Part shown: one piece after another, positions 26 to 30,687 of the stretch | Numbering within the stretch: position 1 is the first letter of the stretch | Layout: each line of letters opens with the position of its first letter | From: Deltaproteobacteria bacterium PRO3 | GTDB taxonomy: Bacteria > UBA10199 > DSSB01 | Direction: 5' to 3' | DNA: 37,481 nt | Assembly: GCA_030263375.1 (NCBI GenBank) | Contig: SZOV01000037.1 | Location: 1-37,481 of the forward strand | Made by a program: the position numbers and the translations under genes | Notes under the pieces: generated by a model | Databases searched by the model: none | What the model was told of the DNA's origin: nothing | The model's input: the letters and a program-made list of their open reading frames with translations, nothing else

Positions 26-1030
26 TTAAAGTTTGGAACCGACGTACTTCGAAAGATCGATCATCCGCTGGCTGAAGCCGCTCTCGTTGTCGTACCAGGC
101 GAATACCTTCACCATCGTGCCGTCCATCACCTTGGTGGAAAGGGCGTCGACGACCGAGGAATACCGCGAACCGTTGTAGTCGGTGCTCACCAGGGGTTCC
201 GCGGAATAGCCCAAGATCCCCTTCAAGGCGCCGCCGGCCGCTTCTTTCAAAAAGCCGTTTACCTGCTCGACGGTGGTCGCGGTCTCGACGTCCGCCACGA
301 AGTCGACCAGCGAGACGTTGGGCGTGGGCACGCGGATCGCCAGACCGTCCAGCTTGCCCTTCAGGCGGGGCAGCACCAGGCCGATGGCCTTGGCCCCGCC
401 GGTGCTGGTCGGAATCATGTTGATGGCGCCGGCGCGGGCCCGGCGCAGGTCCTTGTGCCCGCCGTCGACGATGCGCTGATCGTTGGTGTAGCTGTGCACC
501 GTCGTCATGAAGCCGCGCTTCACCTTCAATTTTTCGTCGAGCACCTTCACGACCGGCGCGAGGCAGTTGGTGGTGCAGGAGGCGTTGGAGATCACCTCGT
601 GCTTGGCGGGATCGTAGCCGTCGTGGTTGACGCCGAAGACGACCGTGTAGTCGCAGTCGTCGGAGGGGGCGCTGATGATGACCTTCTTGGCCCCGCCCTT
701 GAGGTGGTGGATGCAATCCTTCTTGCCATCCAAGCGGCCGGTGCACTCCAACACGATGTCGACCGGCGTGTCGCTCCAGTTGATCTTGGTGATGTCGGGG
801 ATCTTGGAGACGAGGACCTTCCTGCCGTCGACCACGAGGGCGTTCTCTTGGGTCTCGACCGTGCCTTTGAAATTGCCGTGAACCGAATCGTATTTCAGCA
901 GGTGGGCCAGCTCCGTCATGGGGGCCATGTCGTTGATCTTGACCACCTCGAACTGAGGATCGCCCTGGGCGAGCCGGAAGATGGTGCGACCGATGCGGCC
1001 GAAGCCGTTGATGCCGATGCGTAGTGCCAT
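26..1030 (-). CDS. gap: Glyceraldehyde-3-phosphate dehydrogenase, type I
   Basis: This 334-residue protein is a cytoplasmic glycolytic enzyme. It oxidises glyceraldehyde 3-phosphate with NAD and phosphate to 1,3-bisphosphoglycerate. The N-terminus carries the Rossmann motif INGFGRIGR (residues 7-15). The catalytic centre SNASCTTNC places the nucleophile at Cys152. Asn33-Asp34, after the second beta strand, is the arrangement expected of an NAD-dependent rather than NADP-dependent enzyme. Length and ends match the family. It is followed after 10 bases by a probable pgk, giving the usual gap-pgk order. A TTGACA-like sequence lies upstream at 1103-1108 on the minus strand, but I found no good -10 element at proper spacing. 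It is separated by 113 bases from the lipid kinase upstream and may have its own promoter. Confidence 0.97.
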   Translation of the reverse strand: MALRIGINGFGRIGRTIFRLAQGDPQFEVVKINDMAPMTELAHLLKYDSVHGNFKGTVETQENALVVDGRKVLVSKIPDITKINWSDTPVDIVLECTGRLDGKKDCIHHLKGGAKKVIISAPSDDCDYTVVFGVNHDGYDPAKHEVISNASCTTNCLAPVVKVLDEKLKVKRGFMTTVHSYTNDQRIVDGGHKDLRRARAGAINMIPTSTGGAKAIGLVLPRLKGKLDGLAIRVPTPNVSLVDFVADVETATTVEQVNGFLKEAAGGALKGILGYSAEPLVSTDYNGSRYSSVVDALSTKVMDGTMVKVFAWYDNESGFSQRMIDLSKYVGSKL

Positions 1031-1143: not shown

Positions 1144-2079
1144 TTAGGCGGACGGAACCAGGATATCGAGGGCTTGGGGGCGGATTTCGAAGACGATCCT
1201 CGGGCTGTGGAGGTGCTCCCCGTCCAGGTCGATCGGCATTTCCCCGGAAAGGGACTCGATGGCGAGCCGGGTGCCCGCTTGGTAGTGGATCTGGGGGTGG
1301 CGCATGCGCTTTTTGCGGTAGATCTGCGGGAGCTGCCGCAACAGGGCGCCGTAAGGCAGGCGCTCGGCGACCATGCAGAAGAACAGGCCGTCGTCGAGCT
1401 CTGCCTCGGGCGCGATGCACATCCCGCCGCCGAAGTAGCGGCTGTTGGCGGCCATGGCGATGAGCAGGTTCAGCTCGCGCTCCCAAAGCCGGCCATCCGG
1501 AAGCGTCAGGGCGACCCGTACCCTCGGCGCGCGGTAGCTCCAGGCTGCGAGCAGGGTCGAGCGCAGGTACTCGAGCGAGCCCAAGATCTTGCGCGAGGCG
1601 CTCACCCGGCGCACCACCTCGCCGGCGATCCCGGCGTCGGCGATGTTCAGGAAGTAACGCTCGGTCTCGGCGGCGGGGCCCAGCCGCGCCAGGCCGACGT
1701 CGATGCGCCGGGGACGGGCCGCCAAGATCCAGGAAAAATCGCTGGGGTAGGGATAAAGCTCTTTCAAGTTCCGCGAAAAATCCCCGCCGGTTCCGGAGGA
1801 CAGGGTCCCCACCGCGGGCCGCGCCTCGGGCGGGAGGGTCAAGACCCCGTTGGCGACCTCGTTGAGCGTCCCGTCCCCGCCCACCGAGAAAAGGCGCCGG
1901 CAACCCCGCCCCGCCGCCTCTTGGGCCAGACGGCTCGCGTGGCCCGGCCCTTCGGTCGGCAGCCACTGCGCCTCGGGCAGCCGCTCGGCGGCGAAGGCGC
2001 GCAGCGCGGCGAGGAAGCCGCGGTTTTTCCCGCGGCGGGCGACGGGATTGACGATGAAGGCGACGTCGTTCACTTTCAC
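1144..2079 (-). CDS. Diacylglycerol kinase family lipid kinase (YegS/BmrU-like)
   Basis: This protein of 311 residues belongs to the DAGK-catalytic/NAD-kinase-like fold and probably phosphorylates a lipid alcohol such as diacylglycerol or a sphingoid-like base at the membrane. The nucleotide-binding signature SVGGDGTLNEVANGV lies around residues 65-79. The second signature is GTLSSGTGGDFSRNL, where the usual Asn of GTGND is Gly. I chose the GTG at 2077-2079, five bases after the stop of the iron-sulfur gene; a second GTG two codons later is possible. It is the last gene of a five-gene operon with an alkylglycerone-phosphate-synthase-like enzyme, which makes a lipid substrate plausible. The exact substrate cannot be read from the sequence. 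Confidence 0.88.
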   Translation of the reverse strand: MKVNDVAFIVNPVARRGKNRGFLAALRAFAAERLPEAQWLPTEGPGHASRLAQEAAGRGCRRLFSVGGDGTLNEVANGVLTLPPEARPAVGTLSSGTGGDFSRNLKELYPYPSDFSWILAARPRRIDVGLARLGPAAETERYFLNIADAGIAGEVVRRVSASRKILGSLEYLRSTLLAAWSYRAPRVRVALTLPDGRLWERELNLLIAMAANSRYFGGGMCIAPEAELDDGLFFCMVAERLPYGALLRQLPQIYRKKRMRHPQIHYQAGTRLAIESLSGEMPIDLDGEHLHSPRIVFEIRPQALDILVPSA

Positions 2080-2084
2080 GCGAT

Positions 2085-3230
2085 TCAACTCTCGGCGCCG
2101 CCGCGTTTCGGGGCCTCGGCCGGGAGAATGTGCTCGTTGAGAAACTCGTAGAAGTCCTGCACCTCGAAGCCCCGCGCCAGACGCCGGAAGGCCGCCTCCG
2201 CCCTCGCGTCGGCGGTGAGCAGCTTGCCGATGCCGCGCGCGGCGATCTCCTCCACGGTGCGCAGCGCGATCTTCTCGGCGAACTCGGGGAAAACCATGTC
2301 GTAGCTCCCCTCGGTGCCGGAGCTCAGGCTGTCCAGGCCCGACCAGGAGAGCTCGAGCGGCGGAAAACCGGTGAGCTCGCTTAAGATCCGCCGCGGCAGC
2401 TCGACCAAGCCCAGGTAGCGGCTCAAGTGCGAGGGGTCGTGATATGCCAGGCGCCCCTTGATCTTGCCGCGGCTGCGGTAGTTGGAGTGGCGCAGGTAGG
2501 GCTCGAGGAACTCCATGAGCGGGACGCTGCTCTTCTCGAGGGAAAATCCCTGGGCCGCGTACTTCTGCTTGAGGGTGACGCAGCACTCCGGACCGTCGCT
2601 GACCACCCACTTGTAGTCCTTCATCGAGTAGTACTGCACCTCGGCGACCTCTTGGAATTCGGAGCGAAAGCCGAGGGCGTCCAAGGGAGCGCCGCAGCAT
2701 TGGATGGGCGTCTCCACCACCGAGACCCCCTCGATGCCCAGCTTCTCGAAGAGCTCGAAGTACACCCCGAGCCGCTCGGGGAAGTAATGCATCGTGTGGC
2801 AGGAGGGCTGGAACAGGACCTCCTTCCCCTGCTTCGGCGCGGCCTGCGGCCAGTGCGCGCGCGCCCGCTCGTAGAGGTCGAGGCCGTAGGGATTGTTGGC
2901 GGCGGCGAAGCGCTCCTCGAGGGTGTAGACCGGCGCGGGGGCGGCGTAGTTCTCGACCGCCATCCGCCGAATCTCGGCCAGGGCGGAGGGCACGTCGTTG
3001 CCGTGCTCGCAGTATTGCTGGCAGTGCAGGCAATTCACGCATTGATAGACGGCGGCGACCATCGCCTCGCTGAGCGGCAGGGTCTTGTCGGTCAGCCAAC
3101 GCGCGATCTCCATCTTGCCCCAGGGCGTGTAGGTCTCGCTGGCCGTGGCCTCGGCGGTCGGGCAACTGAAGCGGCACATCTTGGGGCAATAGGTGCAGTA
3201 ATCCATCATCTTCTTGAGCTCGCTCCTCAT
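2085..3230 (-). CDS. GlcF/HdrD-like iron-sulfur protein with decayed second CCG domain
   Basis: This 381-residue protein resembles the iron-sulfur subunit of glycolate oxidase or glycerol-3-phosphate dehydrogenase C. It should pass electrons from a flavin subunit toward the quinone pool. Two N-terminal clusters are visible: Cys12, 15, 19 and 23 (the second gap is three residues rather than two) and Cys64, 67, 70 and 74. The first CCG domain keeps Cys144, Cys178-Cys179-Gly180 and Cys216-217. In the second CCG domain the usual cysteines are replaced: the HDPCH motif reads HDPSH (Ser267), the CCG reads SSG (303-305), and the last Cys pair is missing near residue 341. The start ATG at 3228-3230 has an AGGAGG ribosome site and overlaps the upstream stop by four bases. 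An open frame continues upstream, but that stretch belongs to the overlapping gene. Confidence 0.85.
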   Translation of the reverse strand: MRSELKKMMDYCTYCPKMCRFSCPTAEATASETYTPWGKMEIARWLTDKTLPLSEAMVAAVYQCVNCLHCQQYCEHGNDVPSALAEIRRMAVENYAAPAPVYTLEERFAAANNPYGLDLYERARAHWPQAAPKQGKEVLFQPSCHTMHYFPERLGVYFELFEKLGIEGVSVVETPIQCCGAPLDALGFRSEFQEVAEVQYYSMKDYKWVVSDGPECCVTLKQKYAAQGFSLEKSSVPLMEFLEPYLRHSNYRSRGKIKGRLAYHDPSHLSRYLGLVELPRRILSELTGFPPLELSWSGLDSLSSGTEGSYDMVFPEFAEKIALRTVEEIAARGIGKLLTADARAEAAFRRLARGFEVQDFYEFLNEHILPAEAPKRGGAES

Positions 3231-3991
3231 GCGCCCTCCTTGAGGAAAGAGGCCAAGGCACGGTGGCTTTCCGGCAGCTCCTGCCGCCGGCGCTCGGAGC
3301 GTTCCTCGGCTTGGGCGATTGCCGCGCGCCGCAGCAGCGCGTCGAGGTCCGCCTCGTCCCGCCCCGACTTGAAGCCCAGCGCACGGCCCTGCTTGCCCAA
3401 AGCCAGGTCTTCCAAGGCCTCGCCGTAGCTCCGCATCCACCCCTCGGGCCCCCACCACGAGAAGGCCGCCGCGCGGTCGAGCAGGGACATGCCCTCCAAG
3501 ACCTGCATGGCCTCCTCCGAGGCGAGGCGGGCGCGCAGCGGCAGCGGCCAGCGCAGCTTGAGCAGGGATTTCTCGAAGGCCTCGAGGTCGCGCTCCTGCG
3601 CGAAGGCGTAGGCGCGGCACTCGCGGTGGGCGGGCTTGGGAAAGATCCGCAGCGTCGCCTGGATGGGCAGGCCGAGCCACTCTCCCGAGCCGATCGCCAT
3701 CTTCTTCAAGCCGGGGCCGGCCGCGGAGCGCGGCGTCTTGACGTTGGCGTAGAGGGCCCCGCCCGCCTGCGCCAATTTAAGCTGGAGGCAGAGGTCCTCG
3801 ATGCCGCCGAAGGCCGCGGCGTAGAGGTTGGGGAGGCGGCGGCTCAGGGCCTCGGCCAGCAGGGCGCGGTTGTCGGGAAGGGCGAAGTAATTCAGGGTGT
3901 AGCCTTCCGCGCCGACCTTGTCTTCGAGGGCCGCGACGCTCAGATCGGTGTCCGCCGTGACCAAGAGCGAGATGGGGTCGATTTCAATCAT
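3227..3991 (-). CDS. Short GlcE-like FAD-binding-domain protein, probably cofactor-defective
   Basis: This 254-residue protein looks like a shortened FAD-linked oxidase subunit of the GlcE kind. The stretch VTADTDLSVAALEDKV (residues 11-26) matches the strand-helix after the FAD pyrophosphate loop in that family. Residues about 100-120, with GSGEWLGLPIQATLRI, match the GS-GTLG-ITEATLR motif. The N-terminal part with the glycine-rich pyrophosphate loop (PxGGGT) is absent and the middle is compressed, so normal FAD binding looks doubtful. It overlaps the flavoprotein gene upstream by eight bases and the iron-sulfur gene downstream by four, so the three are almost certainly translated together as one complex. 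The role as a scaffold subunit is inference. Confidence 0.75.
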   Translation of the reverse strand: MIEIDPISLLVTADTDLSVAALEDKVGAEGYTLNYFALPDNRALLAEALSRRLPNLYAAAFGGIEDLCLQLKLAQAGGALYANVKTPRSAAGPGLKKMAIGSGEWLGLPIQATLRIFPKPAHRECRAYAFAQERDLEAFEKSLLKLRWPLPLRARLASEEAMQVLEGMSLLDRAAAFSWWGPEGWMRSYGEALEDLALGKQGRALGFKSGRDEADLDALLRRAAIAQAEERSERRRQELPESHRALASFLKEGA

Positions 3992-5528
3992 GGGCGAGCC
4001 CCAGCTTTCCGGGATTGAGGATCCCCGCGGGGTCGAGCTTCCGCTTCATGCGATTCAACCAATCCATCGCCTGCCCCCACTCGTCCTTCATGAAGGCTGC
4101 CTTGAGGACGCCGACGCCGTGGTGGTGGGTGATCGTGCCACCCGCGGCGACGCAGGCCTTCAGCGCCTCGGCCCAGATGCGGTCGTAGAGCTCGCGACTC
4201 GCCTCGCCGCCGTCCCGGTAACCCAGGAAGGTGAAATAGATCGAGCAGCCCTCCGGATAGGCGTGGCTGAAATGCGCCATCACCAGGCCGTGCCGCGAGA
4301 TCGCCGCGCGCACTCGGTCGTAGAGGTTGCGCAGGTTGTTCCAGGTGGTCGCGACCTCCATGGTGTCGGCGAAGAGGCCGGCGTCGAAGAGCGGCGACAA
4401 TTTGTAGGAGACGCTGTAACGGTGCTTCAGCCAATAGCGGCCGGTGCCCTCGCCCAGGTCCTTCGCCTTGAGCTCGACGCAGAGCTCGCGGGCCCGGGCG
4501 ACCTGGGCCTGGGTCAATTCCGCCGCGCCTTGGAAGCCGAGGATCAGCATGCATGGGCCGGGCAGCAGCCGCATCGCCTGCCGCAGCAGGGCGGGCCGCT
4601 TGAGGGCCAGCTTCAGCGAGGCGTCCTTGGCCCAATGCAGGAGGGGATTGAGGGCCCGCGCGAGGCCGTCGAGGACCGAGGGCTCGGCGCCCTCCTGCTT
4701 GTAGGAGGAGAAGAGGACGGTGTCGAGCTCGTCGTAGAGCCGCACCACCGCGGGCTTTAAGCCGGCCTGCAGGATCTTGCGGATCGCGTCGAGGCCTTGG
4801 TCGAGCTGGGCGAAGGAGAAGCCCAAAAAGGTCTCGCTCTCCGGCAGAGGATGCACCCGCAGCGTCGCCTCGGTGACGACGCCCAGCGTCCCCTCCGAGC
4901 CGAGGAAGAGCTCTTTCAAGTCGAGCTCGCCCGGGCAGTCCGCGACGTCGGCCAGATCCGCGATGCGACCGTCCGCGAGGACGACCTGCATCCCCTCGAC
5001 CATGTCCTCGATCTTTCCGTAGAGGGAGGAAAACTGGCCGGCCGAGCGGCAGGCCAAATAGCCGCCGAGGGTCGCCACGTATATCGAGGAGGGAAAATGC
5101 CCCAGCGTGAGGTTGCGGCGCTTGAGCTCGCGCTCGAGCAACTCGCCGTTGATGCCGGCCTGGGCCCGCACCGTCATGCGCGCGCCGTCCACCTTGAGGA
5201 TTCGGTTGAGCCGCTTGAGGTCGAGGCTGATCCCGCCGCGCAGCGCCCAGGTCCCGCCGCAGACGCCGGAGCCGCCCCCGAAGGGCACCACGGGGATGCC
5301 GCGCTCGCTCGCGAAGGCGAGGACCTTGGCCACCTCGCGGGCGGATTCGGGCCAGACGACGGCCTCGGGCGGAAATTTCACCTGGTTGTCGCGGACCCAA
5401 AGGATGCCCTTGCTGCAGGAATCGCGGCCGTAGCTCAGCCGGTCGGGCGGCGAGGCGCTCACCTGGTCGGGCCGCAAGAGCCGGCCCAAATCGCGAAGCA
5501 GCTCGGGTTTGACCGTGGCGAGATCCAT
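3984..5528 (-). CDS. Alkylglycerone-phosphate-synthase-like FAD-dependent oxidase (GlcD position)
   Basis: This 514-residue protein belongs to the VAO/PCMH flavoprotein family. The FAD pyrophosphate loop PFGGGSG lies at residues 82-88, TLGGYLACRSAG at about 153-164, YGKIED at 170-175 and GSEGTLGVVTEATLR at about 210-224. The C-terminal half matches alkylglycerone-phosphate synthase (AGPS), the plasmalogen-pathway enzyme, more than glycolate oxidase. It keeps the triple histidine HHH (468-470) in GGTITHHHGVG, an Arg in VVRLYDE (263) and Tyr431 in CSIYFTF, all in regions known to matter in AGPS. It ends with the usual DPAGILNPGKL motif. Its neighbours are GlcE/GlcF-like redox proteins, which a redox-neutral AGPS would not need. 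It may instead be a dehydrogenase of a related lipid or 2-hydroxy acid. Fold and family are secure, the substrate is not. Confidence 0.87.
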   Translation of the reverse strand: MDLATVKPELLRDLGRLLRPDQVSASPPDRLSYGRDSCSKGILWVRDNQVKFPPEAVVWPESAREVAKVLAFASERGIPVVPFGGGSGVCGGTWALRGGISLDLKRLNRILKVDGARMTVRAQAGINGELLERELKRRNLTLGHFPSSIYVATLGGYLACRSAGQFSSLYGKIEDMVEGMQVVLADGRIADLADVADCPGELDLKELFLGSEGTLGVVTEATLRVHPLPESETFLGFSFAQLDQGLDAIRKILQAGLKPAVVRLYDELDTVLFSSYKQEGAEPSVLDGLARALNPLLHWAKDASLKLALKRPALLRQAMRLLPGPCMLILGFQGAAELTQAQVARARELCVELKAKDLGEGTGRYWLKHRYSVSYKLSPLFDAGLFADTMEVATTWNNLRNLYDRVRAAISRHGLVMAHFSHAYPEGCSIYFTFLGYRDGGEASRELYDRIWAEALKACVAAGGTITHHHGVGVLKAAFMKDEWGQAMDWLNRMKRKLDPAGILNPGKLGLAHD

Positions 5529-5591
5529 CGTGGAAACTTTTAAGGTTTTTCCCGGGCGGGAGCCAGGAAATTCTCCCGGAATACGTCCGGC

Positions 5592-6026
5592 TCAGGCCGC
5601 ACCGCGGGAGGTCTCGAGGGCCTTGGCCTCGATAAAGTCGAGGGCCTCCTTGACCGGGACACGATTGGGGCAGACGCTCTCGCAGTTGCGACAGCCCTCG
5701 CAGAGGCTCAAGTCCACGCCCGCCGCCCAAAAATCGCCGGTGGCCCGCGTCAGCGTGGTCACCAGGGCGCTGGGGCCCGGAAAGGACTCGCGCGGCAAGG
5801 TCTCGAGGGCGGGACAGGCCGCGTCGCAGAGCCCGCAGTTGAGGCATTGCGAAAAACGCAGCAGCCAGGTCTTGTCGACCTGACTTAAAGGGACGAGGCG
5901 ATCGGCGCGGTAGTGGTCCAAAAAGGCCCGGTAGCCGTTGTCTTGAAAGGGCCGCCTGAGGAAGTGCAGCACGAGGGCCCAGGCGAGATTGAGTTTGGCG
6001 AGGAGGGAACGCATCTGGACACCCAT
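5592..6026 (-). CDS. Two-cluster 4Fe-4S ferredoxin-like protein (HdrC-like)
   Basis: This small protein of 144 residues carries two classical 4Fe-4S motifs: Cys61, 64, 67 and 71 followed by Pro72, and Cys109, 112, 115 and 119 followed by Pro120. The N-terminal 50 residues contain a short hydrophobic helix, AWALVLHFL, and basic residues, which could lie on the membrane surface. The layout resembles HdrC and the ferredoxin half of fumarate reductase or GlpC-like proteins, so it probably wires electrons between the flavoprotein and another carrier. The start may be the ATG at 6024-6026 or the one at 6012-6014; neither has a strong ribosome site. It is the first gene of the operon and lies 63 bases before the flavoprotein gene. 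Confidence 0.85.
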   Translation of the reverse strand: MGVQMRSLLAKLNLAWALVLHFLRRPFQDNGYRAFLDHYRADRLVPLSQVDKTWLLRFSQCLNCGLCDAACPALETLPRESFPGPSALVTTLTRATGDFWAAGVDLSLCEGCRNCESVCPNRVPVKEALDFIEAKALETSRGAA

Positions 6027-6177: not shown

Positions 6178-6630
6178 ATGGGTTTAACCAAGAGCTTCAC
6201 CAAAGAGAAATCCCCCCGCAACTGGGTCCTCGTCGACCTCCAGGGCCAAGTCCTGGGCCGCGCCGCCAGCCGCATCGCCATGATCCTGCGGGGTAAGACC
6301 AAGGGGCAATTCACCTCGCACGACGACGTCGGCGACTTCGTGGTCGCGATCAACGCGAAGGGCGTCCGCCTCACCGGCAACAAGATGCAAGAGAAGATGT
6401 ACTACCACCACTCCGAGTACATCGGCGGCTTAAAAGAGTTCACCGCCGAGAAGCTCCTCGAGCGCAAGCCCGAAGAGCTGATCCGCCGGGCGGTGAAGGG
6501 CATGCTGCCCAAGACCTTCCTGGGCAAGAAGCAGCTCAAGAAGCTGAAGATTTATCCCGGCGCGGACCATCCGCACCGCGCGCAAACCCCTGAAGTGGCG
6601 AGCCTCCCCAGCCGCCAGTACAAGAAGTAG
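6178..6630 (+). CDS. rplM: 50S ribosomal protein L13
   Basis: This 150-residue protein is a large-subunit ribosomal protein that binds 23S rRNA early in assembly. Family landmarks include [17 protein letters not shown] near residues 15-31, the [13 protein letters not shown] region, the [15 protein letters not shown] stretch, and the [10 protein letters not shown] motif followed by [11 protein letters not shown]. Its length is within a few residues of other bacterial L13 proteins, with a few extra residues at the N-terminus. It is followed after 15 bases by rpsI, the near-universal partner. It has a weak TTAGG ribosome site before the ATG and a good promoter at 6095-6124. Confidence 0.98.
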
Positions 6631-6645
6631 CAAAAGGACGATTCC

Positions 6646-7044
6646 ATGGCCTCGGTCAAAAAGTTCAACGGAACCGGAAAACGCAAAAGCGCCGCCGCGC
6701 GCGTGATTCTCTCGCCCGGCGACGGGCAGTTTACGATCAACGGCCGCGAAGGCCTCGACAACTACTTCGGCCGCGCGACCAGCCGCATGGTCATCCTCCA
6801 GCCCTTCGAAGTGACGGGCAACCTGGGCAAGTTCAACGTGCAGGCGACCCTCACCGGCGGCGGGCCCCAGGGCCAGGCCGGCGCCCTGCGCCACGGCATC
6901 TCGCGGGCCCTGCTCGCAATGAACCCCGACTATCGCAAGCCGCTGCGCAAGGCGGGCTTCCTCACCCGCGACGCCCGCGTCAAAGAGCGCAAGAAATACG
7001 GCCTGCGCGGCGCCCGCAAGGCGACGCAGTACTCGAAGCGTTAG
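6646..7044 (+). CDS. rpsI: 30S ribosomal protein S9
   Basis: This 132-residue small-subunit protein has a C-terminal tail that reaches the P-site tRNA in the ribosome. The family motifs are [12 protein letters not shown] (about residues 9-20), [22 protein letters not shown] and the basic end [14 protein letters not shown], with the conserved final Ser-Lys-Arg. An AAAGGA ribosome site lies just before the ATG. It is cotranscribed with rplM and followed by a strong intrinsic terminator 20 bases after the stop codon. Confidence 0.98.
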
Positions 7045-7064
7045 TTCGCGTATATTTTCTCTTC

Positions 7065-7093
7065 GAAAGAGGCGCCGGCGAGGCGCCTTTTTC
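7065..7093 (+). terminator. Intrinsic terminator after rpsI
   Basis: A 12-base-pair stem with one G-U pair forms between 7065-7076 and 7082-7093 around a five-base loop. The right arm runs into a T tract at 7088-7092. The core stem AGGCGCC/GGCGCCT is perfect. It lies 20 bases after the rpsI stop codon. Confidence 0.85.
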
Positions 7094-7141
7094 ATTTCGG
7101 GGCCATGATTGGAATTCCATCGCAAGCGATTCTGCAACGGC

Positions 7142-7193
7142 TGTAGGGGCCGTTCGCGCTTGTCCCCCGACTGAGGGGGAAACGGCCCCTACA
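7142..7193. repeat. Large inverted repeat (hairpin element) upstream of argC
   Basis: The 13-base arm TGTAGGGGCCGTT (7142-7154) is perfectly mirrored by AACGGCCCCTACA (7181-7193). Inside, TCCCCC (7163-7168) pairs with GGGGGA (7175-7180), so the element can fold into one long interrupted hairpin. There is no T tract after it. The outer TGTAGGGGC resembles the ends of the shorter palindromes at 24290 and 25584, which suggests a related dispersed family. Confidence 0.75.
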
Positions 7194-7259
7194 TGCCGCG
7201 CCAAAACGGCGCTTGTAATCGACCTTTACTATCCGCAAATTTTAGGATTTATTGACCCC

Positions 7260-8300
7260 ATGCCACTGAACATCGCTATCGTCGGGGCCACCGGTTACAC
7301 GGGCGCCGAGCTGGCGCGGCTCCTATTGCGCCATCCCCAGGTGGCGATCACCGCGCTCACCAGCGAGCGCTCCGCCGGCGAGCCCTTCGGCAAGGCCTTT
7401 CCCGCCTTCCAGGGCCGGCTCGACCTGGTCCTCGAGGCGCTGAACCCCGAGGCGATCGCGCAGAAGGCCGACTTGGTCTTCCTCTGCCTCCCGCACCACG
7501 AATCGATGCAGGCCGCGGCGGCCTTCCGCAAGCTGGGCCGCAAGGTCATCGACTTGAGCGCCGACTTCCGCTTGATCGATCCCAAGGTCTACGAGGCCTG
7601 GTACGGCCCGCACACGGCGAAGAACCTGCTCGAGGACGCCGTGTACGGTCTCCCCGAACTGCACCGCACCGCCGTCGCCCAGGCCGACTTGATCGCCAAT
7701 CCCGGCTGCTATCCGACCAGCTGCATTTTGGGCCTGGCGCCGCTGATCAAAGAAAAGCTCATCGACCTGGAGAGCATCGTCTGCGACTCGAAGTCAGGCG
7801 TCTCCGGCGCGGGCCGCGGCGCGAAAACGGACATCCTTTATTGCGAGGTCAACGAGAGCTTCAAGGCCTACGGCGTCGGCAAGCACCGCCACACCCCGGA
7901 GATCGAGCAAGAGCTCTCCCGGCTGGCCGGACAAAAGGTCGCGATCACCTTCACGCCCCACCTGGTGCCGATGGACCGCGGCATTCTCTCGACGCTCTAC
8001 GCCAAGGCGCGCGGCAAGGTACTGCCGAAGGCGCTGCACGACTTGTATCTGGAATTCTACGCGAAGGAGCCCTTCGTCCGGCTCCGTCCGCTCGGAGCCT
8101 TCCCCGCCACGCACGAGGTGCGCTTCAGCAACTACTGCGATCTGGGCGTCCACTTCGACGAGCGCACCGGCCGCCTCGTCGTGGTCAGCGCCATCGACAA
8201 CCTCACCAAGGGCGCCTCAGGCCAGGCCGTCCAAAACATGAACATCCGCATGGGCTGGGAAGAAACGCTCGGCCTGCTCGACACCGCGCCGGTGCCCTAA
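7260..8300 (+). CDS. argC: N-acetyl-gamma-glutamyl-phosphate reductase
   Basis: This 346-residue cytoplasmic enzyme catalyses the third step of arginine synthesis, the NADPH-dependent reduction of N-acetylglutamyl 5-phosphate to the semialdehyde. The Rossmann motif [12 protein letters not shown] lies at residues 7-18. The active-site cysteine is Cys150 in NPGCYPTS. The family stretches [13 protein letters not shown] and [13 protein letters not shown] are present. Length and ends match type 1 ArgC. No other arginine genes are nearby, so it stands alone here, as is common outside enterobacteria. An AGGA sequence lies upstream at a rather long distance from the ATG. It converges on the giant gene, with 21 bases between the two stop codons and no clear terminator. 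Confidence 0.96.
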
Positions 8301-8321: not shown

Positions 8322-11300
8322 TCACTCCTGTGAATCCCGACGATGGTGCAGGAAGGTCAGGCTGTGCTCCCCAAGCCGATTTTCCCCCGGGAGAAAATCG
8401 CTGACGTTCATGCTGTCGCCGGGACGGATCTCCACGCGCTGGGAACCGCCCCGCGGCACCACCAACGGCGTCGGGTCCCAGTTCAAGTGGACGATCAAGG
8501 CCGTGGCGGGCGAGGTCAATTCGTAGCTCCAGGGCGCGCCGCCCGGGTGGATCCTCAGGGTCGCCTCCCGCAGGCCGCCGACCCGGCTGATCAAGTCCGA
8601 GCGGCCGGAATCGCGCAGCAAGGCGCCGAATGACCGGGGATTACCGAGGTCGATCTCCCGAAGCGCGTTCATCGCAAAGGTGAAGAGCGTCGGGCGGTTT
8701 TCCGGATAGGCCGGAGGGACGACGGGGCTCGGAGCTTCGGCTCCGGCGGTTTCCTCGCGAACGCCCGCCGTGCGCGCCCGTAGGTGTTCCAAGACCTCGT
8801 GCAGCTCAGCGGGGATCTCGCCGGAGACAAGGCGATAGTCGAATTGCCCGCGCATGGGGGAATCGCTCCGCCACGAGAGCTCGACGGCGACGCCGCCCTC
8901 GAAGGGGGTCTCGCTCAATTCATAACCCTCGGGACCACGCCCGAAATAGACGGTCACAATCGATTCATCGCTTCGACCGTCGGAAATCCCGCACAGGTGC
9001 GCATCCAGCAGGCGGCCGATGGGATGGATCAGGCGTCCCACCCCTCGATCTTGGATCATTTCGAGGGCATAAGGTTGCTCAGCCTGGAGGCGCGCCAGTC
9101 CTTCCCGATTTTCCGGCGAGAGTCGGTAGGCGATCAGGGCGGCCTGCTGGCGCTCGTTCAGGCCCTCGTGGGGCTCGGCGTGCAACAGGGTGCCGTCGCG
9201 GGCCACGACGACCTCGACCCGTTCCCCGCCCAAGGCCACTCCCGAGCGATAACGGGTCCCGCGGGGCGAGAGGAAGTCGGGGAGCCCGAGATTCGCGGCG
9301 AGGATTTCGCCGTTGGGGCCCAAAGTCAAATCTCCAACATAGATGCCGGCAGGGTCGGTGACCCAGCGCAAGCCGCCTCCCATCAGGGAGGTCATCGCAC
9401 CCTCGCGAAGGTTGTTCAGCAGGTGCCGCAGACCCACCCGCATCGAGGCGACGAAGGCGCCCGGCACGCCGGGCAGGACCTCGACGACCCCCTCTCCCGT
9501 CGCGGCGGCGAGCGCGGCGGGCGTCGCGGGGATGGTTTCCCGCGGGACGATGGCCTGGCCGTGCAAGCCGCGCAAGGCCTGGAGGACGCTCCACACGCGG
9601 GCGCCGTCCTCCGCCGACAGTCCCCAAGATCCCATCTCCCGCTGGAAGGCGTCGATCGAAGCCTCGTCGACGAGCGCGATCTCCGCGTGCACCGTATTGA
9701 ACTGCGCGACAAAGGGAGAGTCGCGGTGGGCGCGGCCCTGCGCCGCCTGAACCATCTGGTCGCGGACGCCGGCCTGCACCCGAGCCATGATGTCGGGCAA
9801 GAGTGCGTCTCCAAGCGCCGCAGCCCAGGTATCCGGGACGGCGAGCGCGGCGGTTTCCATCGCGGCTCCGGGAGGAACCGGCGGCGGGGTATTTTCGATC
9901 TCTTCCGGAGAAGCCAAGGGAACCGCCTCCGGCACCGCCGCGGCGCGCGGCTGGGAATCGGCCGCCACTTCCGTGGGAGGGACTGGGGCTTCCGCAGCCG
10001 CAGTTTCGGGCGTCGCTTCAGACGCCGTGCGGGGCGATCCCGAACCGTCCGGTCCCGTGGGCGGACTCGCGGGCTCCGGGGCCCGCACCGCGGGGTCGTA
10101 GCGCATGGCTACCAACACGACGTTGTCCGGAGAGACGTGGCCGATGCGCGCCCCGCCGGTCGCGGCGGGATAAACGTCGCCTTCGGCGTCGACGAAATGG
10201 CCTTGGAAGCGCCCAAAGGAAATCTGCAGGCGAGCCCCGTCGGCGGACGTGATCCCGCGGCTGATGCGGAAGACCTCGAGCCTCGCCTCGATCTCCCGCT
10301 GCAGGGCGTCGCGGATCTCTCCCGCCCCGCGCAGGCCTCGCATCACCTCGCCCATCTGCTCGCGAGTGAAGAGCTCGTGGACGCCGTCGCTCATCATGAG
10401 AAAGACATCGCCCGGCCTAGCCTGGAAGGGGCGGTGCGCCCCGCCCCCGTCCGGACGTTCGGGCAACGTCAAGGGGGCGTTGTAGATGCCTTGCGGGTGG
10501 AAATTTCCGGAGGGGGTCCGCGCCAAGGCCGTCGTCACCGTCATGTTGTGGCTGCCCAGGGCGCCGAAGACCCGGGATGCGCCGGGATGCGCGTTCATCT
10601 CCAGGGTATTCGCGATCTCGTGACCGCTGGCCCGGATCACGCCCGGGAGGTTGTGCGGAAAATAGGGACGGATCACTTCGTAGCCGCCGTCGCCGCGCGG
10701 GCGGGCCACGAGCAACTGGGTATCGCCGACCGTCGCCACCTCGACGTGCCCGCTGGGATGCACGCGGATGCCGGTGGCGACCGTGTAGCCGCCGTGCCCG
10801 TGTTGTTGGATCGTCTGGTGGGCCGCGAGGAAGGCCTCGCCCAAGGTGACCGGCGCAGGCAGCATGCGCGCCATGACCGTTTGGATGCCGAGGGAACTCG
10901 CCAGATCCCCCGCCCCGCTGCCGCCCGCGCCGTCGAAGGCCAGGGCCACCAACGACCCGTCCCCGAGGCGAAGCAGGCCGTAGGCGTCCTCGTTGCGCGG
11001 CGGGATCTGCTTGCTGACGCCTTCGTGGGTGAAGGCCGCGACCTCGCCCAAGCCCGGGGCCGCCAGGAAATGCTCGCCCCGCCGCGTGAGGACCTCGTTG
11101 CCCTCGATGACCATCAAAGGAAGGCCCGGCTCCAAGACGCCCTCCGCCGGAGGCAGAGGCGTCAAGGGCTCGGCGGGCATCGCGGGCACGCCGCGCGGCG
11201 GCGTCTGGGCGGCCTCGTCGACATCGCCCGCCGCGGCCGGTCGCGGCGGCAAGGCGGAATCCTGTGCCTCGGCGGCCGGCGCCGAGGGATCCGCCGCCTG

Positions 11301-14003
11301 GGGATCTAAAATCGCGTTCCTCCGCTGGCGGACGTCCGGGGAATTCCCGCCGGCGTCCGGCGCTTCCGCGGAGACCGGGGACGCACGCCTCACCATCAGC
11401 AGGCGACGCTGCCGGCCCGCTCCGGAGATCCTGGGCTCGTAATGCTCGAACATGGCGTCGTTGAAGGATTCCAGGCTGCCGGGCGCGTGGGCCTCGTGCA
11501 GGCCGATCTGCCGCAAGAGGAAGGGACGGTCCCCCGCCAGGGAGGGATTGGCCTGGATCATGCGGTCAGCCACCACACCCGTCCGCAGGGCGCGATGCTC
11601 GCCCAAGACAGAAGGGTTGCGCAGCAGCGGAAGACGATTCCAGATCCGCGCAAAACGGCCGGCCTCAGGCAGGTACAGCTCCGCATTCAGCCCCGCCGAG
11701 CGGCGCAGACCGCGCAGGCCCGCCGCGCCGGTTTCCCAGAGCAGCATGGTAGCGAAATTCTCCGCGACCTCGTCCCAAGAGGTCTCCCATCTTCCGTTCT
11801 GCAGGCGCCTCGCAACAATGCCAAGACCCATACCCATAAAGGTCCCGAAGACCGCGTTGCCGCCGTGCAGGGCCAGGCCGCGGGCGAAGCCCATCTCGCC
11901 GATCGCCACGCCGTTCGCGGCGTTCGGGCTCAAGAGGCGGTTCCAGCCGCGCGCGAACAGCAGCGTCGATCCGAAGGTCAAGCCGTTGATGACGCCGCTC
12001 GTGCCGAAGTCCCGCCAGAAATGCGTCCGCAGCCCCAGGCCGTGCCGATGCAGGCTGTGCAAGCCCGTGCCCAGCGCGGCCATGCCGACGCCGCTGCCGA
12101 GGCCGGTCAAAAAGGTCCCGCGGCGGCTCAGCGTCCCCGCCCGCACCAAGTCGCCTATCAGCGGCGCGGCGAGGCGGCCCGAGGCGCCCGCGCGGGCGAT
12201 CAGGAGGGCCGGCGTCAGCTCGGTCGCGAGGATGCCCAGCCCCAAGGTGGCCAAGCGCTGCGGCGCGACCAGGTGGCGCAACACGCGGTAGCCGCGATAT
12301 CCCATCCCCTCCATGCGCTGCGCCAGCGAGCGCGCCTGGTTGGCGACCGCGGGGCTCAGCGTGCGTTCCGGCGCGATCTCACCGCTCTGGGCGACGCTTT
12401 GGAACAGGGCCTGCGCCATCGCCTCCTCGTGGTCTTCGTGGGAACCCAGGTCCTCCTGCAAAACCTCCAACAAACGCTCGGCGAAGGCGTTGGCCGGGAC
12501 ATTCGCCCCTTCCGCCGGCTCGAGCAGGCGCAATAAGCGGCTGTAGGAGACGTCGGGATGGGCCTCGGCAAAGGCGCGCACCTGGCGCAGCCCTTCCTCG
12601 CCGCGACGCAAGAGCTCCAGCGCGTTGTTCATGCGCGAAGGCCCGGGGCCGCCGTCGGCCTCCAGGCCCAAGGCGACCAAGAGGCCCGGATGCCGGGCCA
12701 GCTCCTCGGCCAAACGGGCTACCGGGTGCTGCGCCTCGCTGCCCGACAGGACGGCTTCCAAGGCCCTGCGCCCCGGGCCCACGCGTAAGGATTCCACGTG
12801 GGCGGCCGCGTCGCCGGCGCGCCGCCACAAGTCCTCCAACGATTCCTCGCCCGCCACCTCGCGCAGGTAGGTCGCGACCTCCGGGGAAGCCGCCGCGATC
12901 CTAAGCAAGGCCGCGCGGTGGTCCTCGGCGGAGGGACCGTCCCGCAGCATCGCCAGAAGCGAGCGCAGGGTCGCCGCTGGATACGCAAGGGCCAGCACCG
13001 TCGTCACCGCCGAGAGCGCCTGATAGCGCGAACGGATCGTCGCCTCGGAATCCTCATTGACCTGGTCGAGGGTCCCCGCCGCGGTCGCCAGCCATTGCAG
13101 GGCAACGCCGTTGAGGATACCGCCCTCCTGCTCGGCCTGAGAAGGACCGTCGAGCTGACCGATCAGGTTGAGGAAATCGGGATCGGCCCCCAGCTCGCGG
13201 CCGGCCGCGTGGTAGAAGCGCAGGCTCTCCGGATTGGCCTCGTTCTCCTCCAGCGGGGGATGCTCGCGGTAGAAGGCGGCCAGCTCGCGGGCGCGCAGCC
13301 GCGCCCGATCGCGTTCGCCTTGCAGGACAAATTGGCGCATCTCAATCTGCAGGCGAATGCCCTGCAGCGCAAGGTTCCCCGGCTCGGCGCGCTGCGCCTC
13401 GCCCACGTAGCCCTCCAAGGTGACGTGAAAGCGCTGCAACAGTCCCCGCAGCGCGGCGATCTCGCCCGCGAATTCGGGCGTCGAGCCCGCCTCGGCGTCG
13501 CCCAGCCGCCCCAGGAAAAGCCGCGCCACGCGGGCGGCGGCAAACAAATAAGTGAGGCGCTGCAGCGGCGAGTATTCGGGACGCTCCGCGATGTGGCGTG
13601 CATACTCTTCGGCGATGTCGGAGAAGAGGCGCGCGAGTCGCGGGATCTCGGCGCGCGCCCCGGCGTCGCCCATCTGCCGGTGCAGCAAGACATAGCAGCC
13701 GCGCATCGCGTCGAGGTAGCCGAGGCGGTTGCCCTGCCGCCCGGAGTCCCAAAGGGCGCGGACGGCGGCCTCCATGTCGGCGGGCGTCCTCGGCCCCTCC
13801 GCCGTCGGACCCAGACGCGGATAGCCCAAGGTCAGCAGGCGGCGCAGGGCCTCGTCCTGACGGAACAAGCCGGCGTTGCGCGAGGCCACGGGCACCTCCA
13901 GTGCGGGGCGCAGGCGCGCCAAAGAACGCGGGACCTCGGGAAAATCGAAGGGGCTTCCGCCGCTGCTTGTGAAGAAATTTCTGCGGGAACCAGGGGGCGT
14001 CAT
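8322..14003 (-). CDS. Giant multidomain protein with central PP2C-type phosphatase domain
   Basis: This is a protein of about 1,893 residues. Residues 1-570 are mostly helical and rich in Ala, Leu, Arg and Glu, with no motif I recognise. Residues about 580-770 are glycine-rich and hydrophobic and could insert in or lie on membranes. A Pro/Ala linker follows (about 880-980). Residues about 990-1300 form a PP2C-like serine/threonine phosphatase domain with RNEDA (Arg1003-Asp1006), DGAGGSG (Asp1024), SDGVHE (Asp1206) and the closing DN pair (1293-1294), so the metal-binding residues appear complete. A second Pro/Ala linker (about 1303-1385) leads to about 500 unassigned residues. There is no signal peptide. 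I prefer the ATG at 14001-14003, which has AAAGGA upstream; an ATG at 14016-14018 is the alternative. Function beyond phosphatase is unknown. Confidence 0.85.
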   Translation of the reverse strand: MTPPGSRRNFFTSSGGSPFDFPEVPRSLARLRPALEVPVASRNAGLFRQDEALRRLLTLGYPRLGPTAEGPRTPADMEAAVRALWDSGRQGNRLGYLDAMRGCYVLLHRQMGDAGARAEIPRLARLFSDIAEEYARHIAERPEYSPLQRLTYLFAAARVARLFLGRLGDAEAGSTPEFAGEIAALRGLLQRFHVTLEGYVGEAQRAEPGNLALQGIRLQIEMRQFVLQGERDRARLRARELAAFYREHPPLEENEANPESLRFYHAAGRELGADPDFLNLIGQLDGPSQAEQEGGILNGVALQWLATAAGTLDQVNEDSEATIRSRYQALSAVTTVLALAYPAATLRSLLAMLRDGPSAEDHRAALLRIAAASPEVATYLREVAGEESLEDLWRRAGDAAAHVESLRVGPGRRALEAVLSGSEAQHPVARLAEELARHPGLLVALGLEADGGPGPSRMNNALELLRRGEEGLRQVRAFAEAHPDVSYSRLLRLLEPAEGANVPANAFAERLLEVLQEDLGSHEDHEEAMAQALFQSVAQSGEIAPERTLSPAVANQARSLAQRMEGMGYRGYRVLRHLVAPQRLATLGLGILATELTPALLIARAGASGRLAAPLIGDLVRAGTLSRRGTFLTGLGSGVGMAALGTGLHSLHRHGLGLRTHFWRDFGTSGVINGLTFGSTLLFARGWNRLLSPNAANGVAIGEMGFARGLALHGGNAVFGTFMGMGLGIVARRLQNGRWETSWDEVAENFATMLLWETGAAGLRGLRRSAGLNAELYLPEAGRFARIWNRLPLLRNPSVLGEHRALRTGVVADRMIQANPSLAGDRPFLLRQIGLHEAHAPGSLESFNDAMFEHYEPRISGAGRQRRLLMVRRASPVSAEAPDAGGNSPDVRQRRNAILDPQAADPSAPAAEAQDSALPPRPAAAGDVDEAAQTPPRGVPAMPAEPLTPLPPAEGVLEPGLPLMVIEGNEVLTRRGEHFLAAPGLGEVAAFTHEGVSKQIPPRNEDAYGLLRLGDGSLVALAFDGAGGSGAGDLASSLGIQTVMARMLPAPVTLGEAFLAAHQTIQQHGHGGYTVATGIRVHPSGHVEVATVGDTQLLVARPRGDGGYEVIRPYFPHNLPGVIRASGHEIANTLEMNAHPGASRVFGALGSHNMTVTTALARTPSGNFHPQGIYNAPLTLPERPDGGGAHRPFQARPGDVFLMMSDGVHELFTREQMGEVMRGLRGAGEIRDALQREIEARLEVFRISRGITSADGARLQISFGRFQGHFVDAEGDVYPAATGGARIGHVSPDNVVLVAMRYDPAVRAPEPASPPTGPDGSGSPRTASEATPETAAAEAPVPPTEVAADSQPRAAAVPEAVPLASPEEIENTPPPVPPGAAMETAALAVPDTWAAALGDALLPDIMARVQAGVRDQMVQAAQGRAHRDSPFVAQFNTVHAEIALVDEASIDAFQREMGSWGLSAEDGARVWSVLQALRGLHGQAIVPRETIPATPAALAAATGEGVVEVLPGVPGAFVASMRVGLRHLLNNLREGAMTSLMGGGLRWVTDPAGIYVGDLTLGPNGEILAANLGLPDFLSPRGTRYRSGVALGGERVEVVVARDGTLLHAEPHEGLNERQQAALIAYRLSPENREGLARLQAEQPYALEMIQDRGVGRLIHPIGRLLDAHLCGISDGRSDESIVTVYFGRGPEGYELSETPFEGGVAVELSWRSDSPMRGQFDYRLVSGEIPAELHEVLEHLRARTAGVREETAGAEAPSPVVPPAYPENRPTLFTFAMNALREIDLGNPRSFGALLRDSGRSDLISRVGGLREATLRIHPGGAPWSYELTSPATALIVHLNWDPTPLVVPRGGSQRVEIRPGDSMNVSDFLPGENRLGEHSLTFLHHRRDSQE

Positions 14004-14019
14004 GCAAATCCTTTGCATG
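14001..14019 (-). repeat. Hairpin over the ribosome site and start codon of the giant gene
   Basis: Eight-base arms, CATGCAAA (14001-14008) and TTTGCATG (14012-14019), surround a three-base loop. On the mRNA the loop is GGA, the core of the AAAGGA ribosome site, and the preferred AUG lies in the downstream arm. The fold could limit translation initiation. This is visible in the sequence; its effect is inference. Confidence 0.55.
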
Positions 14020-28626: not shown

Positions 28627-30687
28627 ATGTCACCTCCGCATCTCCGAACCACCTCCCTCGAACCTAAACCATCTCAAACTCTTGGCCGGGAAACTGATGT
28701 TCGTGATTATGGCACCCGTGATGTCGAGACCTCACGGGATCGATTCACCCAAGAATTTCGGGAGTCCCTCCTGAGAGATGCCTTCAGCGACGCCCCCAGA
28801 CAAAGACCAGGTATATTCGACGAATCTCCATGGAGATATTCCCTATTGGCATTACCGGGAATTCTGAGCGGGTGTAGCAACCACCCACCCTTGATTGGGG
28901 AAGGATCTCCGAGCTCGGACGGAGGCGGTCCATCGGATTCTGGCCGTCCTCCTCGCGATGCAGGCACTCCCGACGTAGACATCCCCGATGCCGGGGGAGA
29001 CGCGGATGCCGAGCCTCCGCCGACTTGCCAGGTACGCTTGCCGATGGCGGTACTATTTTACGATTGCGTTGATATGGCGGGTGAAGGCGAGGGACCTACC
29101 CGGGTGTGCCTGTCTGAACAAAAGTTCGGCGGCGACATCGCCGCGACTCACAGTTTCATCGAGGCGGGGATGGCATCGCTTCGTCACTTATACTCTTCGG
29201 GATGTTCGCCCTTTGCCCTAGACCCCGTCATTTTCTATCCGGAACGTACCTTAAACGCGCGACTTGGTTCTCCGGAATTGGAATTCAGAGTAACGGCCTT
29301 TGGTACGGACGGAACCCCTTTGTATAATTACACCCACTTGCCGAACAGACTGCGTGACGATATCTCGGCCTTGGGAGATGACCCGTCACGATTCGGCATT
29401 TACACTGTCTTCAACGGCTGGAGCAACGCCATCCTGCCTTCCGCCCAGCCGGGTACATACTATCTGCATACCCAACCGACTCCTCCATACGCCGTCACCA
29501 GCCTCAACCTCCACGAAGGCACGATGCCAGACGTTCCGGCAACCCTCAAATGGACCATGCGGCACGAGGGATTTCATGGCGCCCAAGCGGTCGCCCTGCG
29601 TCACGGTTTCACGAGACCGCTGCAGGTCCATGATCGAGCTCCGATTTGCGAGGGTGGGGGCGACAGCTCATGGTTGTGCATGTCCGAATACGATACGGAC
29701 GGAGTCCCCATGCATGTGGAGGATTGGCAAGAAGCCCTGGGGCCGTTGGGGGTCCCGCTTGCTTGCGACGATCCCAGTTGGCAAGCTCAATGCGCGGAGA
29801 CCTCTGCTGTCATGTGTGGCGGCATCGAATGCCCCACCCTTCCTTCGTTCTCCGCATTATGCAACCCTCAAAGTTTTTGCGAATACCACCCCACCGCGGT
29901 TGCGGCACCCTGGCAAAACTATAATTCCTATATCTACGTACCGCCCGGGTCTACATTCAACATGGGCACAAATCCGGATGACCCCGGCCACCAAGCCAAT
30001 GAAGCCCCGGTAGTGGCGATAAACTTCAGCCGTGGTTATTTCATCGGTCAATACGAGGCCACCATCGAGGCCTATGAGGCCTGTCGCGCGGCCGGAGCTT
30101 GCCTGGCTCGAGACTACGAGACATGGGACGCAAACGGATGGGGTATGAATCATTCCGCTTCGCGGCCGCTGCACCCCGTCAACTCCTTGAACGGAAATTC
30201 CGCCTTCGCGCTATGCGAATATCTCATCCCCGGGGGGCGCCTGCCCATCAGGCCCGAGTGGGAATTCGCCGCCAGAGGACCGGCATCCTATCTATACCCC
30301 CACGGAAACACGGAGCCAACCTGCGTAGATCAGCAAGCTGGCTTCAACATGCTTGGAACCCCTGCGGGCTATGGATGCGGCACGGGAGGTACCCATCCTG
30401 TCAACGCCATGCCCAACGGCGTCTCCCCCATAGGAGCCTGGAACATGTCCGGGAATGTTTGGGAATGGACCGCCGGCTGTTGGAACGACGACTATTCCTC
30501 CTTCCCTGCCAGCGGCTATTCGAGCCCGGAATGCCCAAGCAAATACTTCGCGGATTTAGCCGGCGGGGGCTTCAACGATTCGGCATTACGCGTGAGACCG
30601 GCCTCGAGACATAGGGCATATATATACCTTGCCAATTCGAACGTGGGGGTCCGTTGCGCCGCCTCGGCTTCCTGGGTCTACGAATAA
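28627..30687 (+). CDS. Predicted lipoprotein with HExxH domain and FGE/SUMF1-like domain
   Basis: This 686-residue protein has an odd order. About 69 polar residues come first, then a short hydrophobic run ending in the lipobox-like LSGC (Cys83). An Asp/Gly/Pro-rich linker (about 90-132) follows, of the kind common in myxobacterial lipoproteins. The middle domain has HEGFH (residues 313-317), an HExxH zinc-peptidase motif, and Glu342 in CEGGG, spaced like the third ligand of gluzincins. The C-terminal region (about 435-683) is an FGE-sulfatase (SUMF1-like) domain, with YVPPGSTFNMGT, LPIRPEWEFAARG and GNVWEWTAGCW. The catalytic cysteines of true FGE near the end are absent (GGGFNDSALRVRP), so formylglycine formation is unlikely. 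The function is unknown. Confidence 0.78.
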   Translation: MSPPHLRTTSLEPKPSQTLGRETDVRDYGTRDVETSRDRFTQEFRESLLRDAFSDAPRQRPGIFDESPWRYSLLALPGILSGCSNHPPLIGEGSPSSDGGGPSDSGRPPRDAGTPDVDIPDAGGDADAEPPPTCQVRLPMAVLFYDCVDMAGEGEGPTRVCLSEQKFGGDIAATHSFIEAGMASLRHLYSSGCSPFALDPVIFYPERTLNARLGSPELEFRVTAFGTDGTPLYNYTHLPNRLRDDISALGDDPSRFGIYTVFNGWSNAILPSAQPGTYYLHTQPTPPYAVTSLNLHEGTMPDVPATLKWTMRHEGFHGAQAVALRHGFTRPLQVHDRAPICEGGGDSSWLCMSEYDTDGVPMHVEDWQEALGPLGVPLACDDPSWQAQCAETSAVMCGGIECPTLPSFSALCNPQSFCEYHPTAVAAPWQNYNSYIYVPPGSTFNMGTNPDDPGHQANEAPVVAINFSRGYFIGQYEATIEAYEACRAAGACLARDYETWDANGWGMNHSASRPLHPVNSLNGNSAFALCEYLIPGGRLPIRPEWEFAARGPASYLYPHGNTEPTCVDQQAGFNMLGTPAGYGCGTGGTHPVNAMPNGVSPIGAWNMSGNVWEWTAGCWNDDYSSFPASGYSSPECPSKYFADLAGGGFNDSALRVRPASRHRAYIYLANSNVGVRCAASASWVYE

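Follow-up and report, generated by a model that had tools for sequence, protein, structure and literature searches.

An operon in the genome of Deltaproteobacteria bacterium PRO3 may encode an iron–sulfur-wired dehydrogenase that acts on the backbone of glycerol phosphates or glycerolipid phosphates. Its flavoprotein belongs to an alkylglycerone-phosphate synthase (AGPS)-like branch, and its electron carriers would be shared with GlpA-GlpB, the anaerobic glycerol-3-phosphate (G3P) dehydrogenase. This reading is a tentative one; it suggests an undescribed route by which electrons are drained from lipid glycerol backbones. The window, that is, the whole stretch of DNA analysed, comprises 37,481 nucleotides (contig SZOV01000037.1), and the operon consists of five genes:

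5592-6026, minus strand: ferredoxin-like protein, 144 aa, with two 4Fe-4S motifs
3984-5528, minus strand: AGPS-like VAO-fold flavoprotein, 514 aa, with FAD_binding_4 and FAD-oxidase_C (Pfam)
3227-3991, minus strand: GlcE-like protein, 254 aa, matching NCBIfam GlcE only at E 2e-4 and E. coli GlcE by profile alignment
2085-3230, minus strand: GlcF/GlpC-like Fe-S protein, 381 aa, with Fer4_8 and CCG (Pfam)
1144-2079, minus strand: YegS/Rv2252/BmrU-type lipid kinase, with DAGK_cat and YegS_C (Pfam)

An earlier note on this DNA had described five minus-strand genes with overlaps or short gaps at 1144-6026, and the coordinates and Pfam domains agree with that description. The flavoprotein and GlcE-like genes overlap by 8 bp and the GlcE-like and GlcF-like genes by 4 bp (ATGA), while gaps of about 5 bp and 63 bp separate the GlcF-like gene from the kinase and the ferredoxin from the flavoprotein, respectively. 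The genes form one tight operon, with overlaps and gaps typical of a single transcript. It is flanked downstream by GAPDH (window 26-1030) and upstream by a divergent rplM-rpsI-argC cluster (window 6178-8300), a flank also present in families f2 and f13.

As judged from its sequence, the flavoprotein is AGPS-like and not GlcD-like. Its best solved relatives are the AGPS of Dictyostelium (full-length match, 230 bits) and guinea pig (186 bits), followed by D-lactate dehydrogenase (149 bits). In the alignment with guinea-pig AGPS, Arg263 corresponds to Arg419, Tyr431 to Tyr578 and HHH468-470 to HHH615-617. The AGPS active-site residues are therefore all kept, as the earlier note had proposed from these same positions, and the catalytic residues are under strong constraint. 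GlcD and lactate dehydrogenase (LDH) proteins present a Glu at the position of Arg263 and Gly-Glu-His (GEHG) where the window flavoprotein reads HHHG. One further AGPS position differs: Arg515, presumably important for catalysis in the guinea-pig enzyme, is L377 here. The arginine is found in all six AGPS rows of the alignment and in the Dictyostelium enzyme (DdADPS), and the position is occupied by L, M, A, Q, S or I in nearly the whole operon clade. Two members of this clade, L053 (G027) and L139 (an Archangium sp. MAG), have degraded active sites with the operon still present; the Arg419 equivalent is His, the Tyr578 equivalent is Ser or Asp, and L053 reads HQH. Literature searches on the AGPS active site and on how bacteria break down alkylglycerols yielded nothing usable.

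A tree of 69 proteins, calculated by quick search with SH-aLRT support and no bootstrap and leaving out PA3026 and Rv2251, separates the AGPS-like side, including the window flavoprotein, from GlcD/LDH with a support of 100, in line with the assignment made earlier. True AGPS and the Dictyostelium enzyme form a clade (support 97), which groups with AGPS-like proteins of Actinobacteria at 100. The 41 operon proteins, the window's included, form a clade of their own (support 91) with the class members inside at 98, and the window flavoprotein lies outside the clade of characterised AGPS. Flavoproteins from Jordarchaeia and Nitrospirota fall outside the 41-protein clade. A third AGPS-like subfamily of approximately 560 aa, represented by L060, L061 and L028 in the class families f21 and f10, keeps Arg515.

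The operon resembles GlcDEF glycolate dehydrogenase in that a GlcD-fold flavoprotein has a GlcE-like and a GlcF-like partner and the three genes are ordered alike. These partners would be explained by an ordinary GlcDEF-type dehydrogenase of glycolate, D-lactate or a 2-hydroxy fatty acid, and the AlphaFold model of the flavoprotein (pLDDT 84) matches AGPS and LDHD structures equally well, the fold comparison giving no separation of the two. Such an enzyme is nevertheless improbable given the split in the tree, the replacement of that clade's Glu by R263 and of GEHG by HHHG, and a TIGR00387 score of 190 bits against a cut-off of 568; the same four observations ruled out the flavoprotein as GlcD. 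A lipid-derived hydroxy acid, one of the two substrates suggested in the earlier note, is likewise disfavored since the GEHG motif and the Glu of D-2-hydroxyacid dehydrogenases are absent.

The same genome carries a separate AGPS. A protein of 628 aa encoded at G000:C26 (~27.5-29.4 kb) matches guinea-pig AGPS with 585 bits and is directly followed by an 896-aa protein resembling a FAR1-GNPAT fusion and then by a 365-aa NAD-dependent epimerase-like protein, both assigned by eye. In M. xanthus, the operon MXAN_1676-1674 has this layout too (PMC9131029), which suggests, by analogy, that the organism analysed here may be able to make ether lipids; the whole AGPS operon occupies ~27.5-33 kb of the contig (L055 7474-13158). 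With its FAR-GNPAT-like neighbour, the 585-bit protein rules out the window flavoprotein as the AGPS of this genome. In the search of relatives, about half of the operon-bearing class genomes had no AGPS homologue. Thus, the operon is neither the cell's AGPS nor dependent on one.

Compared to AGPS (4bby, 2uuu and M. xanthus MXAN_1676), the window flavoprotein has the same fold, full-length similarity and the equivalents of R419, Y578 and HHH615-617, but it lies outside the AGPS clade, has lost Arg515, is shorter by ~100 aa at the N terminus and is linked to Fe-S proteins and a kinase instead of FAR/GNPAT. The other substrate suggested in the earlier note, an ether-lipid precursor, is not specifically supported: a real AGPS with its FAR-GNPAT-like and epimerase-like partners is encoded elsewhere, no AGPS homologue was found in roughly half of the class genomes that carry the operon, and Arg515 is lost.

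The ferredoxin-like protein presents its 4Fe-4S motifs, CLNCGLCDAACP and CEGCRNCESVCP, behind a hydrophobic N-terminal segment, and its best NCBIfam match is GlpC (subunit C of anaerobic G3P dehydrogenase), far under the cut-off. The GlcE-like protein has no Pfam match; in a profile comparison with the flavoprotein family (hhalign 99.8%, E 4e-30) it covers residues ~110-391, and its match to E. coli GlcE is weaker. The first half of the FAD-binding domain, GGGSG FAD loop included, is missing, as is the HHH cap; the structure predicted for the protein (pLDDT 90) corresponds to a part of AGPS. A Myxococcota counterpart, L069, has a complete FAD loop, VVPYGGGSNLVGG, and the loops of other counterparts are eroded, so the GlcE-like protein looks like a flavoprotein becoming a structural subunit. 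It is probably a structural subunit without flavin.

For the GlcF-like protein, the alignment with E. coli GlcF reaches 99.0%; both 4Fe-4S motifs are present and the first CCG motif (CCGAPL) is kept. The second is degraded (SLSSGTEG) in the window's family and intact (CCGAGG) in sister families. Together with the AGPS-like flavoprotein, the missing FAD loop and the additional kinase and ferredoxin, the degraded motif sets the window operon apart from GlcDEF. The kinase has DAGK_cat and YegS_C domains over their Pfam cut-offs and an intact GGDGT motif; its TIGR00147 score of 115.8 bits falls just below the cut-off of 118.65.

That an AGPS-type flavoprotein is packaged with electron carriers, as had been noted from this single locus, is reinforced by the conservation of the neighbours. 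At a flavoprotein threshold of E < 1e-80, 21 of 60 relatives (window excluded) carry the flavoprotein together with its neighbours, 20 within the window's class and one outside it (G059), and the gene order recurs in 13 of the 21 sampled families of the class. Wherever the contig is long enough, the GlcE-like, GlcF-like and kinase genes follow the same order in these 21 relatives except in L053, in whose operon the neighbour search found no kinase, and L046/G059, in which it found no GlcE-like gene. The ferredoxin is found in 14 of the 21 related operons; no upstream homologue was found in L042, L047, L048, L049 and L050, and the search gave none for about one third of the class copies. In L046 (9177-10100), which belongs to the sole operon-bearing relative outside the class, an in-frame stop separates the two halves of the kinase; sequencing error or decay could account for it.

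A scan of the genomes of ~85,000 species recovered at least 80 loci, although L062 and L068 repeat genomes already counted. Most are from Myxococcota, with others in Wallbacteria, Planctomycetota, Hydrogenedentota, Nitrospirota and two Jordarchaeia archaea, and the versions in Myxococcota, Wallbacteria and other phyla are looser. Among the matches listed, the common layout is FAD-GlcE-GlcF-kinase, or FAD-GlcF-kinase without GlcE, and in some FAD and GlcE are fused (~990 aa). The GlcF-like gene adjoins the flavoprotein in 44 of 80 of these matches and the kinase lies within 8 kb in ~25 of 80, many contigs being short. Could the neighbours be adjacent by accident and unrelated in function? The window copy sits among housekeeping genes (GAPDH, rplM-rpsI), and its surroundings alone therefore give no pointer to a common function. 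Chance adjacency is very unlikely, however, as the reading frames overlap and 20 further genomes of the class, as well as other phyla whose flanks differ, keep the order.

The strongest context did not feature in the earlier note, namely that in other genomes GlpA-GlpB adjoins the operon. When the neighbours of ~100 loci were clustered, two recurrent extra families emerged, and these are GlpA and GlpB. The pair is directly upstream in five class genomes from four families (L040, L043, L045, L053 and L054) and in L065, L072, L110, L111 and L112, giving ten loci from several phyla. In all ten, the operon's ferredoxin or GlcF-like gene comes next, at the place of GlpC; the order is GlpA-GlpB-Fer-FAD-GlcE-GlcF in the five class genomes, and Jordarchaeia have GlpA-GlpB-GlcF-FAD. 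Six more loci have GlpA/GlpD alone in the vicinity. Most operons, the window's among them, do not adjoin GlpAB. In the window genome, GlpB is encoded at C32 next to a GlpA C-terminal domain, and GlpC is not found near them; the only other CCG protein found in this genome is large, has a membrane domain and is unlike GlpC by eye.

Co-occurrence was assessed in 45 genomes of the class, 21 with the operon and 24 without. The GlpA/GlpD C-terminal domain is present in 20 of the 21 (one weakly) versus 3 of the 24 (Fisher p 1e-8) and a strong GlpB match in 12 of 21 versus 0 of 24, though the p-values are too strong since the 45 genomes share kinship. The COX1 control does not follow the operon (17/21 versus 16/24, p 0.33), which makes aerobic respiration less likely as the cause of the correlation between GlpA and the operon and weakens that explanation. 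Several genomes have the operon without GlpB.

A dehydrogenase of a glycerol-phosphate-type alcohol is the simplest way to account for four features: an AGPS-type pocket and electron carriers that are both conserved, an absent Arg515 and the link to GlpAB. For its substrate, direction, assembly into a complex and electron acceptor, we infer the following scheme. The flavoprotein would act on a substrate of this type, most likely a lyso- or monoalkyl/acyl-glycerol phosphate, and oxidize its C2 hydroxyl to give the corresponding dihydroxyacetone phosphate (DHAP). The truncated GlcE-like subunit would tie the flavoprotein to the GlcF-like protein; the latter and the ferredoxin would hand the electrons on, probably to quinone, a plausible final acceptor. 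The same Fe-S carriers may also serve GlpA-GlpB where it is present without a GlpC of its own, and the kinase may make or recycle the phosphorylated lipid substrate.

The flavoprotein might instead retain redox-neutral AGPS-type chemistry, performing exchange or hydrolysis on acyl- or alkyl-DHAP via a flavin N5 adduct, with the Fe-S proteins serving GlpAB, which makes DHAP from G3P, and keeping the flavin oxidized. The conserved equivalents of R419, Y578 and HHH and the proximity of GlpA/GlpD fit this alternative, as does a route proposed for a related cluster. In P. aeruginosa, GliR activates PA3026 (FAD oxidoreductase), PA3025 (G3P dehydrogenase) and PA3024 (carbohydrate kinase), along with PA3023 (lipid kinase) and a phospholipase; deletion of the operon gave no growth phenotype, and Kotecka et al. 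suggest alkylglycerone-phosphate synthesis for PA3026-PA3024 (PMC8151288). Redox-neutral chemistry is nonetheless judged unlikely for the window operon: Arg515 is replaced in nearly all of the clade, the operon has no acyltransferase or fatty-acyl reductase, and the genome has its separate AGPS with a FAR-GNPAT-like neighbour. In addition, many FAD-GlcE-GlcF operons have no GlpAB nearby, and the Fe-S partners thus seem to belong to the flavoprotein.

Similar clusters are found elsewhere. In M. tuberculosis/BCG, Rv2249c-Rv2252 are listed together as glpD1, a regulator, a flavoprotein and a diacylglycerol kinase (PMC4564863). In Streptomyces and Tsukamurella, the neighbours of an AGPS-like gene are GlpD and a lipid kinase, and in Microbacterium GlpK-GlpD is close to such a gene. 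The PA3026-PA3023 and Rv2249c-Rv2252-type clusters likewise combine an AGPS-like oxidoreductase, a G3P dehydrogenase and a YegS-type kinase. Unlike the window operon, the Pseudomonas and Actinobacterial clusters have neither Fe-S partner genes nor a GlcE-like subunit and feature GlpD instead of GlpAB, and the Actinobacterial flavoproteins group with AGPS, with Arg515 retained. Shinella and Mesorhizobium have AGPS-like genes in the company of xylulokinase and ABC transporters, a hint that this branch may oxidize polyols.

The gene orders in the five class genomes and in Jordarchaeia, and the finding of no GlpC in the window genome, could also mean that all of these genes together encode a single, unusual G3P dehydrogenase of the GlpABC type. 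An electron-transfer or structural role would then fall to the AGPS-like and GlcE-like proteins, or they would handle the other enantiomer, sn-glycerol-1-phosphate. The ferredoxin and GlcF-like proteins do resemble GlpC weakly, but in the window genome GlpA-GlpB is at another locus, and the AGPS-like flavoprotein is an insertion relative to GlpABC. This alternative is quite unlikely considering the strong constraint on the flavoprotein catalytic residues, which a mere electron relay would not be expected to show, the operon genomes without GlpB, and the kinase, which is left unexplained.

Bacterial AGPS homologues are in use for predicting ether-lipid producers from genomes; a Black Sea study counted as AGPS any protein at least 30% identical to M. 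xanthus AGPS with E < 1e-30 (PMC11868695). An AGPS-like protein can have HHH and Tyr motifs that are intact and still be part of a different, redox-wired system, as the operon clade demonstrates. Such predictions therefore need checks of Arg515 and of the gene neighbourhood.

If the dehydrogenase reading is true, electrons from lipid glycerol backbones have a further respiratory route, and the ether-lipid synthase has a plausible sister state. A more far-reaching and less probable form of this reading is that the operon represents a widespread undescribed respiratory module in which an AGPS-sister dehydrogenase would convert lysophospholipid or alkylglycerol-phosphate backbones to (acyl/alkyl)-DHAP with Fe-S carriers shared with GlpAB. 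AGPS would then be a redox-neutral offshoot of glycerol-backbone dehydrogenases, with related versions of the module in Bacteria and Jordarchaeia.

Elsewhere in the window, a 1898-aa open reading frame (8322-14018, minus strand) has no Pfam match at E 1e-5, and a 686-aa protein (28627-30687, plus strand) carries a C-terminal FGE-sulfatase (sulfatase-modifying factor) domain.
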